This document shows positions 9,949-63,425 of a stretch of DNA of 64,000 nucleotides, one piece after another. Source of the DNA: Xylogone sp. PMI_703 (lineage: Eukaryota > Ascomycota > Leotiomycetes); NCBI GenBank assembly GCA_021399445.1, contig JAJTUQ010000006.1:3658001-3722000 (forward strand). Reading direction: 5' to 3'. A model generated the notes under the pieces. It was not told where the DNA came from, did no database searches, and saw nothing but the letters and a program-made list of their open reading frames with translations. The translations under genes and the position numbers were made by a program. Numbering within the stretch: the first letter of the stretch is position 1; each line of letters begins with the position of its first letter.

Positions 9949-10770
9949 ATGGATCTGGTATATTATTGTTGCTCTTGGTTTTCGATATAGTAGAATACTG
10001 GAAAATGTACATCTCTAACTCATGAATAGATAGATCATAAAGCCAAAGGACCGCTAATCCTAGATTACGAATCTGCCTGCAATTCATCCCAGAATCTTGA
10101 ACCGAAATCAAGAGTAGAGGAAAATGGATCATATTCTTCGACTAATGATGATATCTCAGTCCGCAAGATCAAATTTCTTCCCCTTGGACATCGCCTCCTG
10201 ACACTTGTCACTTTTATTCTGGCGTTATGGGGTTTAGTGGACTTGCTATACCGTTTGTTTAACGCCATCTCTTTTCCGTCAGCAACAGTTGCAGTATCAG
10301 ATTCTCCATCCAGCGAACACCCAGTTTGCTGGTGCGGAAGCTCTGATGAAGAGGCGATTGCAATGGGATGTCGTTACGACCATATTGCTGTGGACTGGTT
10401 ACCGAATGATTGTATTGACGACGAACTAACGGCAGAATTCGATAGAGCTGGGCCTGGCCTTAATGGATCGTGGAACTATTACACAAAACTTCACGGCGGC
10501 CACCTAATTAACAACAGTGAGATTGACGACTACGCAATTACTGCTACTGATTACTTTGCAACCCGTGAATGGCACATTGCACATTGCATTTTTACCTGGC
10601 GAAAACAATTTCGTAGCCGGTCAACGGGTAAAATTATAGAGCCGTGGAATGAAAAGGAAGAACACATCAAGCATTGCGGAAGTTACATTATGAGAGCAAT
10701 CAAGCACAAGCAAGATTTAGATGAAGTAGATACTCATATTTATGGAAAGGCTAGACATGACAGGGAGTAG
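9949..10770 (+). CDS. UstYa-related membrane protein (CWCG / HxxHC type)
   Basis: Predicted single-pass membrane protein of about 228 residues, a paralogue of 58817-59533. The main exon is 10093-10770. It has no in-frame ATG at its start, so I join it to a nine-base exon (ATG GAT CTG, 9949-9957) across a 135-bp GTATAT...CCCAG intron; this start is inference. Residues about 38-57 form a transmembrane helix. The lumenal part has CWCG (82-85), MGCRYDH, AVDWLP, CIDDEL, NGSW, and two HxxHC motifs: H164-I-A-H-C168 and H194-I-K-H-C198. Paired HxxHC motifs are the hallmark of UstYa (DUF3328) proteins, which oxidatively cyclise RiPP peptides, but the rest of this protein differs from classical UstYa. 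It is therefore best called a divergent relative. No precursor peptide was recognised next to it. Confidence 0.75.
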
Positions 10771-57026: not shown

Positions 57027-58816
57027 AGGTCAAGATGATTTTATCTCTTTGTTCAAGCGGATTCTTTGTAGGAGGTATGCTTTGATGTCATGACTACGAT
57101 TATGATTGTACTTTTCTATTTTATTTATTATTGCGCGGTTTATTGGGTGGTTGAAGATGTATGGATTCCCAGTTTTTATCTCCTGATTCATTTTTTCATC
57201 GATAGTTTTATTTTCATTTTAATGCTCAAACACAGAGCCATAAGCTAGTTCTACACTTCAATATAATAACAGCGAGTGTTGATCCATTCCCCTCCTTCAA
57301 TCGCAGTTATTCTATTCCTGCCGTCAATTTGACAATTTATTACTACTTTAGTAGTGGTCTCAGCAATAGTACCAATATCACGCACATTATTCACTTGCTC
57401 CCTTCAGAGGACTTCTCAGCTCCTATCTCAGTGTTCTCGGCCCCGTGGTAATTTTTGTCTGGTTCCGCTTTATTTTTCGTGTCCCTACGAGGCCCTTGAT
57501 TTGGTCCACAATAGCAGAAGCATCCTTCCCATTCTAGCAAACAGCACAAGATTAGCAACTTGACAATCTATTTCAGATAGCGAAAGCTTACTAAACTGGC
57601 ACGCGCAACTGAATCCAACTCGTTTTCTTGCGACGCTGTCAGAGTTCTTCTGTGGTTTATATTCCATGTCTCTCGTTGATTACTCTGATGTGATCTATGA
57701 TTAATCTTTATCGCAGAGTCGTAGAATTTTTGACGTAGTAGGACAGAGAAAAGTTTCGGAAAGATTATGACATTATATGTTTTGGCTGATCCAGCTGAAT
57801 AGGTTATCAGGAAGTTCAGCTGAAAACCTGTCAGGCCTTTGTCCGCAACCATTCATCCGTAGCTGTTATCCAGTGATTGCCTGTAGGCTTTCACAAGTCG
57901 CCGACCTCCATAACCCCGAACATTGACGTAAAACATAGTTCAGGTCACAAAATGAGGTCTTCAATGTCAAAGCCGTTCATTGTACAGTACATTATGTACT
58001 CGCAGATGCGCTCTATTCATCTAGGAAGGAATAATACAATACAAGCTATACTTGATTAATAACTTAGTTCTTTAATAGATTATGTAGCGAGCAAGGTTTT
58101 TTGACGGTCCACCTTGAAAGCTCGATTGCCACATACACGTAGAACAGAGGCTACAAATACTCGGGCCGAACGTTATAATAAAACGCGGCTATTGCAGCGT
58201 ACTTCAGATTTCTTTGCCATTTTGATTAGATAACTCTCTATTCATAACATAAATAAGGAATAATCTAGATTCATGGTGCCGGCCGTAGAGAAGAATGACT
58301 AGTATTCGCACAATTGTGACCCTGTTAGGTTTACTGGTTGCAAAGCAGAGCCTCGTCTCTCGCGCAGGGGACTATACCCAATTTCTGAACCGTGAGTGAT
58401 AGTAGGAAGTCCCTAAAGCTGAATTGTCATTGTGGATACACCCAAGCAAAGTAGTGAAGCTTAAGCTTTTATGACTTCTTATGCAAGGCAACCGGATGAG
58501 AGCCACCGTGATTGCGCCACCACTGCTCCATAATCCGTACAGCGAATGAAAAATCATTGCATGGCATATGCGTACTTTCATATTTGCTTTGATTTATGAG
58601 TCGTTCTTGTAGCTTCGCAGAAAACCCCGTGACTGCTGTTGTTAGTACTACTGCCTTCTCGGCCTGCGAATTAGCTAGTACATCGTCTCTATGTAATCAC
58701 TACCACCAGATTCAACATGTTAGTTCTTAGAATTCTACGAGTCTAGTCAAGTATGCGCGAAGTGAAATATTGTTACATCTCTGTTATTATCTGCTGTTGC
58801 TGAATAAACTTTGATA
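57027..58816. other. Intergenic stretch between housekeeping gene and RiPP-like cluster
   Basis: 1.79 kb with no supported gene. Frames at 57354-57563 and 57568-57852 lack motifs. It separates the conserved genes from the accessory cluster that starts at 58817. Confidence 0.5.
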
Positions 58817-59533
58817 TTACTCCATTAAATGTTGATGCCGATTTCTTCCCCCAATGAGGGTATCTACATCGGATCTGCTGTCCCCCACTGTTTTCAGTAG
58901 ATATTTACCACAGTGTGTAATATGTTCTTCGTTCATATTCCACGGTTCAATGGTGGTTCCCAGCTTCTGGGCACGGAACTGCTTCCGCCAGGTGAAAATA
59001 CAGTGTTGGATATGCCACTCTCTTGTAGTCCAGTAGTCGGTTGCCGTTTCTGCATAGCTATTAATTTCGTCAAGATCAATTAGTTCTCCCGAATATTGTG
59101 ATGTCCAGTATGGCCACGACCCATTGATGCCAGTACCAGCATGATCGAACTCAAATAACAGTTCGTCGTCTATACAGTGGTTAGGAAGCCAGTCCACTGC
59201 AAGATGGTCATAACGGCAGCCCATAGAAATGGCCTCGGCATCAGTCCCTCCGCACCAGCATGCTGCTTTTCTTGCTCCGTATCTTTGGCTCTCTAAGATG
59301 GTCGATAGCCTAGTGAAAAGTCGATTCAAGAGATCCACGACACCCCAGATCGCAAAGCACAGGATAATGATGGTCAAAACCGTACTCTTTTTGTTATAGT
59401 ACTTGAATTGTTTAATTCTGCGGCTTGGCATAGACCATTTGAATTCTTGGAGTTCTAGTCCAACTTCAGGAACTGCACCACGCGGATTTTGTCCCTCAAG
59501 ATCTAATGTAAGTGCTTGCTCTTCATGATGCAT
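58817..59533 (-). CDS. UstYa-related membrane protein (CWCG / HxxHC type)
   Basis: Single-exon gene of 238 residues, paralogue of 9949-10770. I use the ATG at 59533; the frame extends upstream but only to non-ATG codons. A cytosolic N-terminus of about 50 residues precedes a transmembrane helix (about 51-70, TVLTIIILCFAIWGVVDLL). The lumenal part holds CWCGGTDAEA (92-101), MGCRYDHLAVDWLP, CIDDEL and NGSWPYW. Two HxxHC motifs follow: H174-I-Q-H-C178 in REWHIQHCIFTWRKQF, and H204-I-T-H-C208. In UstYa (DUF3328) proteins this pair binds the metal used to cyclise RiPP peptides. Here the surrounding sequence is different, so I infer a divergent relative that may modify the peptide from 63036. It shares a 900-bp divergent promoter region with the next gene. 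Confidence 0.8.
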   Translation of the reverse strand: MHHEEQALTLDLEGQNPRGAVPEVGLELQEFKWSMPSRRIKQFKYYNKKSTVLTIIILCFAIWGVVDLLNRLFTRLSTILESQRYGARKAACWCGGTDAEAISMGCRYDHLAVDWLPNHCIDDELLFEFDHAGTGINGSWPYWTSQYSGELIDLDEINSYAETATDYWTTREWHIQHCIFTWRKQFRAQKLGTTIEPWNMNEEHITHCGKYLLKTVGDSRSDVDTLIGGRNRHQHLME

Positions 59534-60432
59534 AGATGTATCCTGGCTTTTTTTATTAACTGTAACATATAGAGCAGCGCACTTCACTCACCTGGCACAT
59601 TGTGCGAAGACCAACCCGAGCTGCTAAGATTCGTATATAGAGCGAGGACGACTTAACTATAACGCCATCTCTAATCATGGAGACACATATAAGAGCAAAT
59701 CGAGATCAGCCTGAAAATAAACCTGAAAACTCAGAATGCAGCACACCGTGTCGCAAGTACTGCCTAATTCTCCAGATTTTTCCTCCAATATGAAAGGGAG
59801 ATGATGATGTACGATAGTATCGCATGCATAGTTACATAAACGTCAATCATGAGTTCCCCCACCATTAGAAGTAGCTTTGAGTCTAACCAAAGATGACAAC
59901 TATCGTAACGTGTGTTTTACTTTGCTAAGGATCGGCTCTGCGCGGGTGCGGTGAGTGTGATGATATGGTCTCTCCGCTTGACGTTGGCTAACTGCCTGCA
60001 TGCATTCGTTCTTTTCCGAGGGTCGCATGCTTATTCGTTCATGGAACCTCGAACGTAAAATATATATACATACCCTGCCAGTGAGCCTGCATAAGTGCCT
60101 TATATGCATTATCACAGTAGAGTGGAGTAAGACGTCTGGGACATGCAGAAAGATTACAGCATCAGAGATCTGCGTTGGTTGATGCCTCAAAATCCCTCAC
60201 TTGAGTAGACACTCCACAAGGCCGGGAAAAGCGGCCTCTCGCATTCTACTCCCCCCTTCATTGACCTTGGCATGAGAGATGGTCTGTCCCCGTGAAATTG
60301 TTGCTTAAACCTCTGTCATTTGGGCCGCGGTGATACTTGAATTTATCAGCTCTTTCAATTCTATTTTACAACCAGCTTCACACATCAATATTCGACTGGA
60401 GGGCAATATTTCCAGTTCCAGAGGCATCTACA
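59534..60432. other. Divergent promoter region inside the RiPP-like cluster
   Basis: 899 bp between the start codons of two putative modifying genes. It contains a perfect inverted repeat, AGGCCG-GGAAAAG-CGGCCT, at 60219-60237, listed separately. No coding sequence was recognised. Confidence 0.5.
60219..60237. promoter_or_regulatory. GC-rich inverted repeat, possible regulator site
   Basis: AGGCCG and CGGCCT flank a 7-bp spacer in the divergent promoter of two cluster genes, 196 bp before the ATG at 60433. Zn2Cys6 factors often bind inverted CGG-type half-sites with fixed spacing. The site was found only once among the cluster promoters, so the role is speculative. Confidence 0.3.
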
Positions 60433-61291
60433 ATGCGCCCCTACCAGCAGGTTAAGACCTCGTCTACAGAGGACCTTGAGCCATTTATCCCGTATCATGA
60501 CAAATCCCCTAACTTCAAAAATACGGATGATGACACCAGCGTGGTTAATCTCTCGTCTCATCGGAACAAATGGTTGCAATGGGCAGTCCATGCTATCGCC
60601 ATTGCTATAGAACTAAGCCTTGCAGTCTGGTTATTCTTCGCCACAGCGTGGCGTATGTCATCGTTGTCGGCATGCTCTCCTTCTCTGAGGGAGCATGAGC
60701 TTCAGGCTGCCCACTCCGCTGTGCGGTATACCACACGTACTTTCGCAGCCAGTGCCTTTCACGAACACGACGATGACGCACCTTCTGTCTTTGAGCATTT
60801 GGTTGGAGCGGCGACGGAGCATGCTTGGCGAAACTTAACGACTGTCGGCGTGGTTGCGCTGAATGCTGAACAAAACTCGCAACTGGCTTTCCCATCCGTC
60901 GAGTCCCAGCCTGGAATGTATCCTGTAGGGCTCAGCATGTTCCACCAGCTGCACTGCTTGAATTACTTACGCATATCACTCACGATGGGCCCTGGAGATA
61001 ACCCTACGGAGGACGAGCACATGAGAGAAGTGCATCGTATCCACTGTCTGGACTACTTGCGGCAAGCAGTTATGTGCAATGCAGGTAAGAGCTGTTTCTA
61101 TCTTACTTTACGTTGAAGGACGTAGTTGAGCTGATTAAATCTAAATGTTAGATCTTACACCAATGTCATTCTGGTATGATGAGTCCAAGCCTGGGTATGC
61201 GTTCGAGCATGCGGCTGTGCACACCTGCCGTGACTTCGACGCTATCTACGAGTGGGCTGTTGAGAATGCGGCGGATCTAACGATAGAGTAG
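60433..61291 (+). CDS. UstYa/DUF3328 family oxidase-like protein
   Basis: Type II membrane protein of 263 residues, candidate catalyst for oxidative macrocyclisation of the peptide encoded at 63036. Exons 60433-61084 and 61152-61291 are joined by a 67-bp intron (GTAAGA...TGTTAG), the acceptor placed so that [13 protein letters not shown] follows. A frame upstream of 60433 has no ATG. A transmembrane helix lies at about residues 50-70. The diagnostic motifs are H171-Q-L-H-C175 in [12 protein letters not shown] and H201-R-I-H-C205 in [15 protein letters not shown]. The C-terminal [16 protein letters not shown] is also typical of the family. Known members (UstYa/UstYb in ustiloxin, PhomY proteins, AprY) work in the secretory pathway on Kex2-processed peptides. 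Confidence 0.93.
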
Positions 61292-61657
61292 TAAGAGAGT
61301 AGACGCGGTTAAATTACAAAATAATTGCTTCAGTGTGTAATTACTGTAGCCCTAGAACAATTACCATGAATCTCAAAGTAAAGGGGGCCCGTGACTAACC
61401 TAGCATATTAAGGTTACGATGACCAAATACTAAGTAGAGATTAGTCTAGAGAAGCTTTGATCTTCTAATTGAGCAAAGTTCCTCATTTTACATGAAGTGT
61501 CCAGCTAGTCAATAATCCCGTTTAATAATGAGACCATACAGCATGCGACAAGAGTAGACATAGTGTTAAGTATAGCGGTCACTTAGTGAGATTTAAAGTT
61601 TCATACCAACGTTAACTACGCTAATGCCTACCTATAACCTACCCAGCCAAGCTTTAT
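61292..61657. other. Convergent intergenic stretch
   Basis: 366 bp between the 3' ends of the two UstYa genes. Nothing recognisable. Confidence 0.5.
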
Positions 61658-62590
61658 TCAAGCAACAGTGTAGGTTGATGTATTTCTCTGGAGCGCAAAT
61701 TCATAAATAAGATCCCAGTTCCTGCACGTATGCATGATGGCAAAATCGGGCTTGAACGGCGGTACCGGCAACTCATCCCTCTCTCTCCGCGTCTCTTGCT
61801 CCATTCCCCACTTTGTCCTGTCTAGAGTGATCGGTGTCATATCCCCGTGACACATAAGCACCTGGCGGAGATAGTCCGAGCAGTGATCGAGGTGCTTAGA
61901 TTTGGACCATTCGGATTCTCCTGGGTGGTGATTGCCGTCTCTGCTGTAACTCGCGTGCCGTAAGTAGTCGAGGCAGTGCAATTGGTGGAAAACTTCGAGA
62001 GTGACCAGGTATTGTTCTTGATTATCACTGTCCAGGATAAGTTGGCCTTGCATATCAATCAGCGGCGTTGTGCTCATGGGAAGAGCGGCGGCTTCCTCGG
62101 CGTTGAGAACCACCATGCCCACATTATACAACTTTTCCCAGAATGCATCCGTCTCGGTTCCCGGTACTCCAAGGTAAGGGTTGAAGGGGAGTGTGGGATC
62201 GTTGGTGAATCCGCTTGGATCGAACTTCACGTCTTCGTACGCTATAAAGTTACGAACGTATGCTGCCATGATGATTAATTGCTGAGAAATAATCATTTGA
62301 ATAGCTGAAGCGTTGTAAGGAGACTTACGTAGCTCAGACGGTAGTAAGATTGACTCCATACTAATGCTACCAGAACTATACTGATATGAAGAATGGCGGG
62401 CTAGGAGGAGCCCTGCTAAAAGGAGGGTCACAAAGTGCAAGCATAGTATGTATGCCGTCGAAAGAGCGGACGCTATGGAGGTGCTGGTATTATTGCTTCG
62501 AGCCCTGGTCTTGCCGGCAGTGCTGGGCAACCCGTCCACTTGTTCGTCTTGTGGCACCTGCGAATAAAATTTGCTGAACTTGCTAAACAT
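61658..62590 (-). CDS. Second UstYa/DUF3328 family oxidase-like protein
   Basis: Candidate peptide-cyclising oxidase. The frame is open through 310 codons, but I split it into exons 62590-62329 and 62241-61658 (281 residues). The 87-bp segment between them starts GTAAGT, ends TTATAG, is a multiple of three, and encodes a sequence unlike the family. Removing it gives SELPYEDVKFDPSGF, which fits the start of the DUF3328 lumenal domain. The transmembrane helix is residues about 42-63. Motifs: H173-Q-L-H-C177 in VFHQLHCLDYLRH and H204-L-D-H-C208 in HLDHCSDYLRQVLMCHGD. The C-terminus has HTCRNWDLIYEF as in its neighbour. The two classical UstYa proteins here are diverged from each other, as UstYa and UstYb are. 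Confidence 0.92.
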   Translation of the reverse strand: MFSKFSKFYSQVPQDEQVDGLPSTAGKTRARSNNTSTSIASALSTAYILCLHFVTLLLAGLLLARHSSYQYSSGSISMESILLPSELRKSPYNASAIQMIISQQLIIMAAYVRNFIAYEDVKFDPSGFTNDPTLPFNPYLGVPGTETDAFWEKLYNVGMVVLNAEEAAALPMSTTPLIDMQGQLILDSDNQEQYLVTLEVFHQLHCLDYLRHASYSRDGNHHPGESEWSKSKHLDHCSDYLRQVLMCHGDMTPITLDRTKWGMEQETRRERDELPVPPFKPDFAIMHTCRNWDLIYEFALQRNTSTYTVA

Positions 62591-63035
62591 ATCTAAAGGC
62601 CTTGCCGTTTTTCAAAAGTGAAAGTATCTTGTAAAACTTCTTGGAATTATATCCGATAGCAAAGCCGATGTTAAGCTATCTGGGCTCGAAGGTCATTATT
62701 ATAAAGTGAGTAAGAGAGCACAACACGATGTCTGCAGGAATCAAGACTGGGCTCCGGAAAGTGGTAGTTATAACTTTAATTAATACATTTTGCTTATATA
62801 ATATAGTATGTACCGACACTAACTCAGTCCTGTTGATCTAATTACAACATGCCAAAATAAAGTGATTCGGCTCAGATATTCATGCATACAACCAAAACAG
62901 TAATGCAGACAGTCTTTAATTGGCATTTGCTACTTAACCAGTCTTTACTATCATAAATTTTGGAGTTATCCAATATGCGATTTAAGGGTGCTAGACTATT
63001 GCCACTTTTAACCATAAGCTAATCTTAACCTCTAC
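62591..63035. other. Intergenic stretch between oxidase and precursor genes
   Basis: 445 bp between the start of the second UstYa gene (minus) and the end of the precursor gene (minus). It should contain the promoter of the former. A TATATAATATAGTATG sequence near 62795-62812 is the most AT-rich part. No further precursor repeats were found. Confidence 0.5.
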
Positions 63036-63425
63036 TTAATTCTTCTCAGAAGCCTGTTCTTCGTCTTTGCGGTACCTGCCAGGACGTGAGTAAGCCGCTA
63101 GAGAAGACGGATGTATAAAACTGACGCAACATAAGTCTGGCGCTTTTCATTCTCAGATGCATCTTTGTCCTTACGATAGCTGCTAACAATTCAGTAGGCT
63201 GCAAAAGGAGTGTGCAGGATATAATACTAACGCGACATATGTCTGACGTTTCTCATTCTGAGACGTCTCTACTCCCTCACGGTATCTGTCAAAAGATGAG
63301 TAGGCCATAAGGGAAGAAGAATACTATACTAACGCCACATATGTCTGACGTTTTTCTTGGGCAATGGGAGATGCGGCAACCATGCCAGCTAGGAGAGCGA
63401 GGATGCTGATATTGACGAACTTCAT
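63036..63425 (-). CDS. Candidate dikaritin-type RiPP precursor peptide
   Basis: Secreted precursor of 79 residues, four exons: 63425-63334, 63285-63232, 63179-63126 and 63075-63036. The introns are 48, 52 and 50 bp, all in phase 2. Residues 1-18 are a signal peptide (MKFVNISILALLAGMVAA). Lys-Arg pairs, the cleavage site of Kex2, lie at residues 25-26, 43-44 and 61-62. Each is followed directly by QTYVAY (27-32, 45-50, 63-68), then a polar, acidic spacer beginning Arg-Glu or Arg-Lys. The unit length is 18 residues. Each copy is cut by an intron inside the same Ala codon, with donors GTTAGT, GTTAGT and GTCAGT. This plan (signal, Kex2 sites, repeated Tyr-containing core) is that of ustiloxin, phomopsin and asperipin precursors. 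Two UstYa genes and one UstYa-related gene lie within 5 kb. The core and product are inferred; no known product with this core comes to mind. Confidence 0.85.
63126..63351 (-). repeat. Tandem exon-intron repeat units in the precursor gene
   Basis: Each unit consists of a conserved KRQTYVA-coding block plus an intron of about 50 bp. The sequence CATATGTCTGACGTTTxTC on the plus strand recurs at about 63236 and 63338, with a diverged copy near 63130, giving spacings of about 106 and 102 bp. The internal exons are both exactly 54 nt and symmetrical in phase, so units can be gained or lost without shifting the frame. Confidence 0.8.

Follow-up and report, generated by a model that had tools for sequence, protein, structure and literature searches.

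Dikaritin-type pathways, by which fungi make ribosomally synthesised and post-translationally modified peptides (RiPPs), combine a secreted-type precursor, in which repeated core peptides are flanked by Kex2 sites, with DUF3328/UstYa proteins (PF11807) that carry two HxxHC motifs. The original definition adds a tyrosinase, a methyltransferase and a transporter or peptidase, and was later relaxed to treat DUF3328 as class-defining (PMC12048977, in excerpt). The asperipin-2a cluster, composed of aprA, aprY, aprT and aprR, is listed without a tyrosinase in the excerpted account, according to which AprY is essential and the bicyclic product contains ethers between tyrosine side chains and beta-carbons (PMC6514808). 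In the excerpted text of a wider survey, a DUF3328 gene is in the vicinity of 1758 of 7878 Kex2-processed repeat proteins (KEPs) (PMC7329392). Here we describe a locus in a 64,000 nt stretch, hereafter the window (G000:C22:3658001-3722000), from the 50.1 Mb, 25-contig genome of the leotiomycete Xylogone sp. PMI_703. Within 4.6 kb it holds a spliced precursor with repeated KR-QTYVAY-R units, two UstYa genes (encoding proteins A and B) and one divergent double-HxxHC gene (encoding protein C), which likely constitute a compact, tyrosinase-free dikaritin-type RiPP pathway.

The QTYVAY precursor and its introns

The precursor gene is composed of four exons on the minus strand, running from 63425 to 63036 of the window, and its introns of 48, 52 and 50 nt all have GT...AG ends:

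63334..63425, minus strand: exon 1 (92 nt), with a start resembling a signal peptide by inspection, the leader, KR site 1 and QTYVA of core 1
63286..63333, minus strand: intron 1 (48 nt), phase 2, splitting the Ala codon of core 1; if retained, the frame reads QTYVALV and then a stop
63232..63285, minus strand: exon 2 (54 nt), with the end of core 1, a spacer, KR site 2 and QTYVA of core 2
63180..63231, minus strand: intron 2 (52 nt), phase 2, splitting the Ala codon of core 2
63126..63179, minus strand: exon 3 (54 nt), with the end of core 2, a spacer, KR site 3 and QTYVA of core 3
63076..63125, minus strand: intron 3 (50 nt), phase 2, splitting the Ala codon of core 3
63036..63075, minus strand: exon 4 (40 nt), with the end of core 3, the tail and the stop

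The spliced product, 79 aa long, reads MKFVNISILALLAGMVAASPIAQEKR-QTYVAY-REGVETSQNEKR-QTYVAY-RKDKDASENEKR-QTYVAY-RKDEEQASEKN; QTYVAY immediately follows each of the three KR sites, forming units of KR-QTYVAY-R. With its start judged by eye to be a signal peptide, it is a secreted-type precursor with Kex2-flanked repeated cores. An earlier reading of the window, made from its letters alone (the original prediction), had proposed this four-exon, 79-residue model with three Kex2 sites, and the model is confirmed by a database protein (P0001, a hypothetical protein of Xylogone sp. PMI_703) to which it is identical over all 79 aa. The deposited entry is an independent gene model, and the gene is annotated but unnamed; two further statements of that prediction, that the cluster was previously unannotated and that the precursor would be missed by annotation based on open reading frames (ORFs), are contradicted by it. 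The core itself had been said to differ from YAIG, YVIPID and FYYTGY, and QTYVAY was not found in the literature searched, although it may be listed in the supplements of KEP surveys.

A degenerate DNA pattern for KRQTYVA matches the genome three times, always at the precursor, whilst its reversed control has no match genome-wide. Across the three 27 nt copies encoding KRQTYVAYR there are seven variable positions, each of them silent and at the third base of a codon; a wholly silent outcome was obtained in none of 100,000 random placements of these positions. The three pairs of cores show 3, 6 and 7 silent differences and no replacements, as against 1 silent and 9 replacement differences between spacers 1 and 2, the sole spacer pair compared. 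To judge from this pattern, all nine residues of KRQTYVAYR, the trailing Arg included, are held. The constraint also applies to the Tyr and Arg codons on the far side of the intron, in the following exon, and because silent-only change spans the intron in this manner, it supports the splice sites. A chance repeat was considered and rejected on the KRQTYVA pattern counts, on the Markov-shuffled scan described below and on the silent-only variation.

Each of the three introns cuts the core Ala codon after its second base. The introns can be aligned with one another, their interior alignment scores being equalled in 1, 2 and 2 of 500 shuffles, which indicates that they are homologous to each other and that the duplicated unit is therefore an intron plus an exon. 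Exons 2 and 3 have the same length (54 nt) and phase (2-2), and all six donor-acceptor pairings in gene order yield KRQTYVAYR. An unspliced reading of the precursor was rejected: every retained intron leads to an in-frame stop and none gives YVAY, hence the second Tyr of the core is present only in the spliced mRNA. Because splicing completes each core and exons 2 and 3 are 54 nt, phase 2-2 modules, copies could be gained, lost or skipped with the core unaltered; that splice choice is used to set the core copy number is a conjecture. Introns within cores are not described in the excerpted literature searched on KEPs, dikaritins and UstYa/DUF3328 clusters; where introns are mentioned there, the context is a different one. 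The gene indicates that multicore precursors in fungi can grow through exon duplication, and not solely inside an uninterrupted array, and single-frame repeat mining is predicted to overlook such genes where spliced models are missing.

UstYa proteins A and B and the divergent protein C

The three other genes of the cluster each encode a double HxxHC motif behind a transmembrane (TM)-like segment:

61658..62590, minus strand: protein A, a UstYa (PF11807) oxidase of 288 aa when spliced (intron 62328-62263), with a TM-like segment and motifs HQLHC and HLDHC
60433..61291, plus strand: protein B, a UstYa (PF11807) oxidase of 263 aa when spliced (intron 61085-61151), with a TM-like segment and motifs HQLHC and HRIHC
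58817..59533, minus strand: protein C, a divergent HxxHC membrane protein of 238 aa in a single exon, with a hydrophobic TM-like segment and motifs HIQHC and HITHC

None is more than 4.3 kb from the precursor, the start of protein A being 446 bp from the precursor stop, much as foreseen in the original prediction of two UstYa genes and a third HxxHC-bearing membrane protein. As unspliced open frames, A and B score 130 and 89 bits respectively against PF11807, for which the cut-off is 25; in both, a strongly hydrophobic segment is found near the N-terminus and the two HxxHC motifs are 30-31 residues apart. The pairing of such UstYa proteins with an adjacent Kex2-repeat precursor bears out the locus type originally claimed, which is very likely dikaritin. 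In the excerpted account of CctR, a DUF3328 enzyme, the double HxxHC motif is required for activity and each monomer has two copper ions; its authors assign the domain, which follows a TM helix, to the lumen of an organelle, and postulate an accessory protein as the source of electrons or Cu(I) (PMC12435403). By analogy, A and B (and C) are probably copper enzymes.

The database form of protein A, at 310 aa, was rejected, as it retains the 66 nt intron (62263-62328, minus strand) as 22 residues lacking in the aligned relatives; the alignments for A comprise 31 and 26 of 104 listed relatives, besides the query. Relatives of A and C at approximately 74-82% identity were found in other assemblies. 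A PDB sequence search with A returned two matches only, both irrelevant at an E value of about 1. AlphaFold models of A (in its 310 aa form) and C have mean predicted local distance difference test scores of 75.2 and 79.9 and predicted template modelling scores of 0.60 and 0.62, respectively, and share the order strand, HxxHC helix, HxxHC helix, strand.

Protein C scores 12.3 bits against PF11807 and so falls under the cut-off by which UstYa/DUF3328 membership is curated. In an alignment of its family (25 rows, using 24 of 26 listed homologues), G105-C106, D109, W115-L116-P117 and C120 are invariant, as are H204, H207 and C208 of an HxxHC motif, and H174, H177 and C178 are nearly so. Comparison of this alignment with that of UstYa using hhalign gave a probability of 90% (E value 1.6e-6) with both HxxHC motifs in register. 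Protein C has a TM anchor followed by HxxHC(x)nHxxHC, together with remote profile similarity to UstYa/DUF3328. In a Pfam scan of ten relatives, three touched UstYa at 11.3, 20.8 and 23.3 bits, all below the cut-off, and a precomputed PF11807 tag is attached to 3 of the 26 listed homologues.

The genome contains 38 matches to the C family, of which 29 have one or more of the 108 PF11807 matches within 10 kb. An even spread of genes would give 0.86, although this null is lenient: secondary-metabolism genes cluster, which would raise the expectation. When merged into loci, 18 of 26 C loci are near UstYa (binomial probability 3e-24), or 17 of 25 if the QTYVAY locus is set aside (1e-22); viewed from the other side, a C gene is found within 10 kb of 18 of the 49 merged UstYa loci. 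Against a tight bond between the two, 9 of the 38 C matches are more than 10 kb from any UstYa match, and 31 of the 49 UstYa loci lack a C match within that distance. Both HxxHC motifs are carried by 11 of the 12 C genes read out of 38, one of which is clipped at the end of its stretch. Protein C is therefore best described, on sequence comparison, as belonging to a divergent DUF3328-like branch that accompanies UstYa loci. One member (L017:8305-9000, minus strand, its start clipped) has the degenerate motifs YLVHC and HTKNC, and is possibly a non-catalytic partner. A second copy is found in the window, outside the QTYVAY cluster:

10030..10770, plus strand: C-family open frame with motifs HIAHC and HIKHC

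This copy is approximately 48-54% identical to protein C, and has neither a PF11807 match within 10 kb nor, in a scan for three-copy repeats, a repeat precursor nearby.

Other repeat precursors and the flanking genes

We scanned 13 of the 49 merged UstYa loci, the window included and two of them by half, for three or more occurrences of KR with the same peptide after it. Repeat arrays were found in 6 of these 13 regions and in none of five Markov-shuffled copies: QTYVAY, DFAEPL (11 copies, an antisense echo of which was left uncounted), QTTGDK (7 copies in the exact scan), EAEAQF, EAEAEP (by a looser test only) and EVEAG. None of the five other arrays, as read in this genome, has introns in its repeats; four are single uninterrupted frames, whilst the EVEAG array has a one-base frame change at which no intron site is visible. 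By hand count, a C-family match lies within 10 kb of the UstYa match in all 6 regions with a repeat precursor and in 2 of the 7 without (Fisher test 0.016, or 0.027 without the QTYVAY locus, from a small sample). The distance is measured to the UstYa match of the region: the C gene of the EVEAG region is some 17 kb from the array, and those of the C3 region are just outside the scanned stretch.

The QTTGDK region (L026-L028, G000:C1:8093001-8115000) includes the precursor QTTGDKSPKYEDYEVSKR, with its array beginning at about L027:3883, UstYa matches, two tyrosinase matches (C1:8096533 and 8102267) and four C-family matches. From its sequence it seems to be a classical dikaritin cluster, with a fuller set of genes than the QTYVAY locus. 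The EDYEV part of QTTGDKSPKYEDYEVSKR is reminiscent of the EDYXI motif (PMC6339444, in excerpt). The eleven-copy KR-DFAEPLLGE... precursor (L017:2645-3080) is near UstYa and several C-family matches. Three arrays near UstYa matches have EA or EV dipeptides after KR, namely EAEAQFSNKDW (L035 from about 3925), EAEAEPQYRNADW (L031:1377-1545, minus strand) and EVEAGADW (L021 from about 5081).

The C family, mostly below the Pfam cut-off yet strongly associated in this genome with UstYa loci, is a candidate accessory factor for this family of copper enzymes. A more far-reaching suggestion, which we offer only tentatively, is that it forms a second divergent double-HxxHC branch and regularly partners UstYa enzymes in fungal repeat-peptide clusters, either as a hetero-oligomer partner or as the copper or electron supplier postulated for CctR; here it would act on cores made only by splicing, with exon gain, loss or skipping setting how many identical cores a transcript carries.

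Thirteen tyrosinase (PF00264) matches are present in the genome, none of them on the contig of the window, so the tyrosinase of the original five-gene dikaritin definition is lacking there. In 30 flanking ORFs (10 upstream, 20 downstream), Pfam named no methyltransferase, transporter or peptidase. The original prediction had noted that neither a tyrosinase nor a methyltransferase was in the window, and these results extend its observation. The downstream set consists of 20 of the 27 ORFs of at least 130 aa at 64-98 kb, spanning 65.3-94.3 kb from the window start; Pfam identifies a BTB domain, three HET (heterokaryon incompatibility) genes, a tannase in two pieces (one below the cut-off), a fungal transcription factor, an AlaDh/PNT domain and, some 30 kb off, GH11 and P450 genes, with the remaining ORFs assigned to no family. 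Three pieces at 81-83 kb resemble a major facilitator superfamily transporter by eye, but match no family. The three HET genes are all within 30 kb downstream (L009:8370-9200, L010:7372-9189 and L012:2672-4843). The ten upstream ORFs include genes for a transcription factor and a pectate-lyase-like protein. Next to C, and between it and an aldo/keto reductase gene (52.7-53.8 kb) that lies 5 kb beyond protein C, is a glutamate dehydrogenase-type gene (55.5-57.0 kb); three of the ten match no family. A neighbourhood search for a transporter, reductase or tyrosinase had been proposed in the original prediction, and of these only the reductase was named by Pfam. It might be a distant tailoring gene, though the dehydrogenase gene separates it from the cluster. 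A short open frame at 58295-58400 of the window (plus strand) has a start resembling a signal peptide by eye (MTSIRTIVTLLGLLVAKQSLVSRAG...), and may be nothing.

The likely pathway and its closest counterparts

The chemistry of the product, its expression and its role are inferred from sequence. The precursor would enter the secretory pathway and be cleaved by Kex2 after each KR, with Gln1 forming a pyroglutamate, probably at the N-terminus of the product. Proteins A and B, perhaps with C, would be membrane-anchored, probable copper oxidases with lumenal catalytic domains that oxidatively cross-link the released peptide in the Golgi lumen, and trimming of the spacer would leave a QTYVAY-derived product. 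The likeliest bond, although doubtful in itself, is from Tyr3 to Tyr6, phenol oxygen to beta-carbon, by analogy with asperipin-2a. Nothing in the analysis says that the product is toxic.

Several points count against such a pathway. The locus is known here from the sequence of one strain, with no homologous locus seen. The search for homologues advocated in the original prediction recovered the identical 79 aa entry and, among 13 candidates from approximately 5.8 billion proteins, no other relative of the precursor at an E value of 0.1 or better, although such a search needs shared five-residue words and distant relatives with a different core would escape it. The ends of the core are assumed, since the conserved unit takes in the following Arg, and the flanking ORFs offer no Pfam-named transporter or peptidase. 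Confidence in the structure models of A and C is moderate, and a PDB fold search with them found nothing at an E value below 0.001. The substrates of UstYa proteins include non-RiPP compounds, and adjacency is no proof of a shared pathway. The contention that this combination of genes defines dikaritin pathways was too strong, as the original definition also lists a tyrosinase, methyltransferase and transporter or peptidase (both points from excerpts of PMC12048977).

The best surviving alternative, though an improbable one, is that the precursor gives rise to an unmodified, pheromone-like KEP acting as a signal, with the neighbouring UstYa genes serving another substrate. Most KEPs (6120 of 7878) are without a nearby DUF3328 gene, and 38.2% of their repeats contain Tyr; by contrast, Tyr is found in 65.6% of repeats beside DUF3328 genes (PMC7329392, in excerpt), and there are two in each core here. 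The concentration of two PF11807 genes and protein C within 4.3 kb, with A only 446 bp off, also argues for a modified product, as does the occurrence of C near UstYa in 6/6 regions with repeat precursors against 2/7 without. Very unlikely is an ustiloxin/phomopsin-type pathway with its tyrosinase and tailoring genes elsewhere in the genome: two of the 13 tyrosinase matches are indeed at C1:8.10 Mb beside UstYa and another repeat precursor, but none is on this contig, and QTYVAY lacks the Ile that follows Tyr in YAIG and YVIP. A decaying or silent locus, with a correct gene model that is no longer used, might be suspected from the single strain and the lack of precursor relatives, but is just as improbable given the silent-only core differences, the GT-AG introns, the open reading frames of all four genes and the existence of relatives of A and C at approximately 74-82% identity.

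The dikaritin-type pathway favoured here shares with those for ustiloxin and phomopsin a signal peptide, KR-flanked repeated cores and more than one DUF3328 gene, but differs in having no tyrosinase match on the contig, no Tyr-x-Ile pattern in its core, and no methyltransferase or peptidase named in the flanking ORFs. Protein C resembles CctR, the cyclochlorotine hydroxylase, in its TM anchor and HxxHC(x)nHxxHC arrangement; however, the two coppers per monomer are those of CctR, the substrate of which is a non-ribosomal cyclic peptide, and protein C can only remotely be aligned to UstYa.

Since the contig carries none of the 13 tyrosinase matches, the locus is closer to the asperipin-2a model than to that of ustiloxin, and this absence and the Tyr3/Tyr6 spacing together point to asperipin-2a. 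Both systems have a repeat precursor, a UstYa-type oxidase, no tyrosinase and several Tyr per hexapeptide core, and FYYTGY and QTYVAY both have Tyr at positions 3 and 6, in line with the resemblance remarked upon in the original prediction; the asperipin-type traits that agree are the Tyr spacing and the lack of a tyrosinase only. The QTYVAY locus has two UstYa proteins and one divergent HxxHC protein where asperipin-2a has one, lacks a named adjacent transporter, and in place of the isoflavone reductase of asperipin-2a has at its nearest an aldo/keto reductase, behind another gene. With Tyr at 3 and 6, QTYVAY is a simple core on which to test how the cross-link site is selected by UstYa enzymes when no tyrosinase is present. 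The cluster as such belongs to an already known kind, that of KEPs beside DUF3328 genes, and falls in the same general class; here, however, the repeat unit is an exon and every core is split by an intron, a feature not found described in the literature searched and absent from the five other repeat arrays read in this genome.

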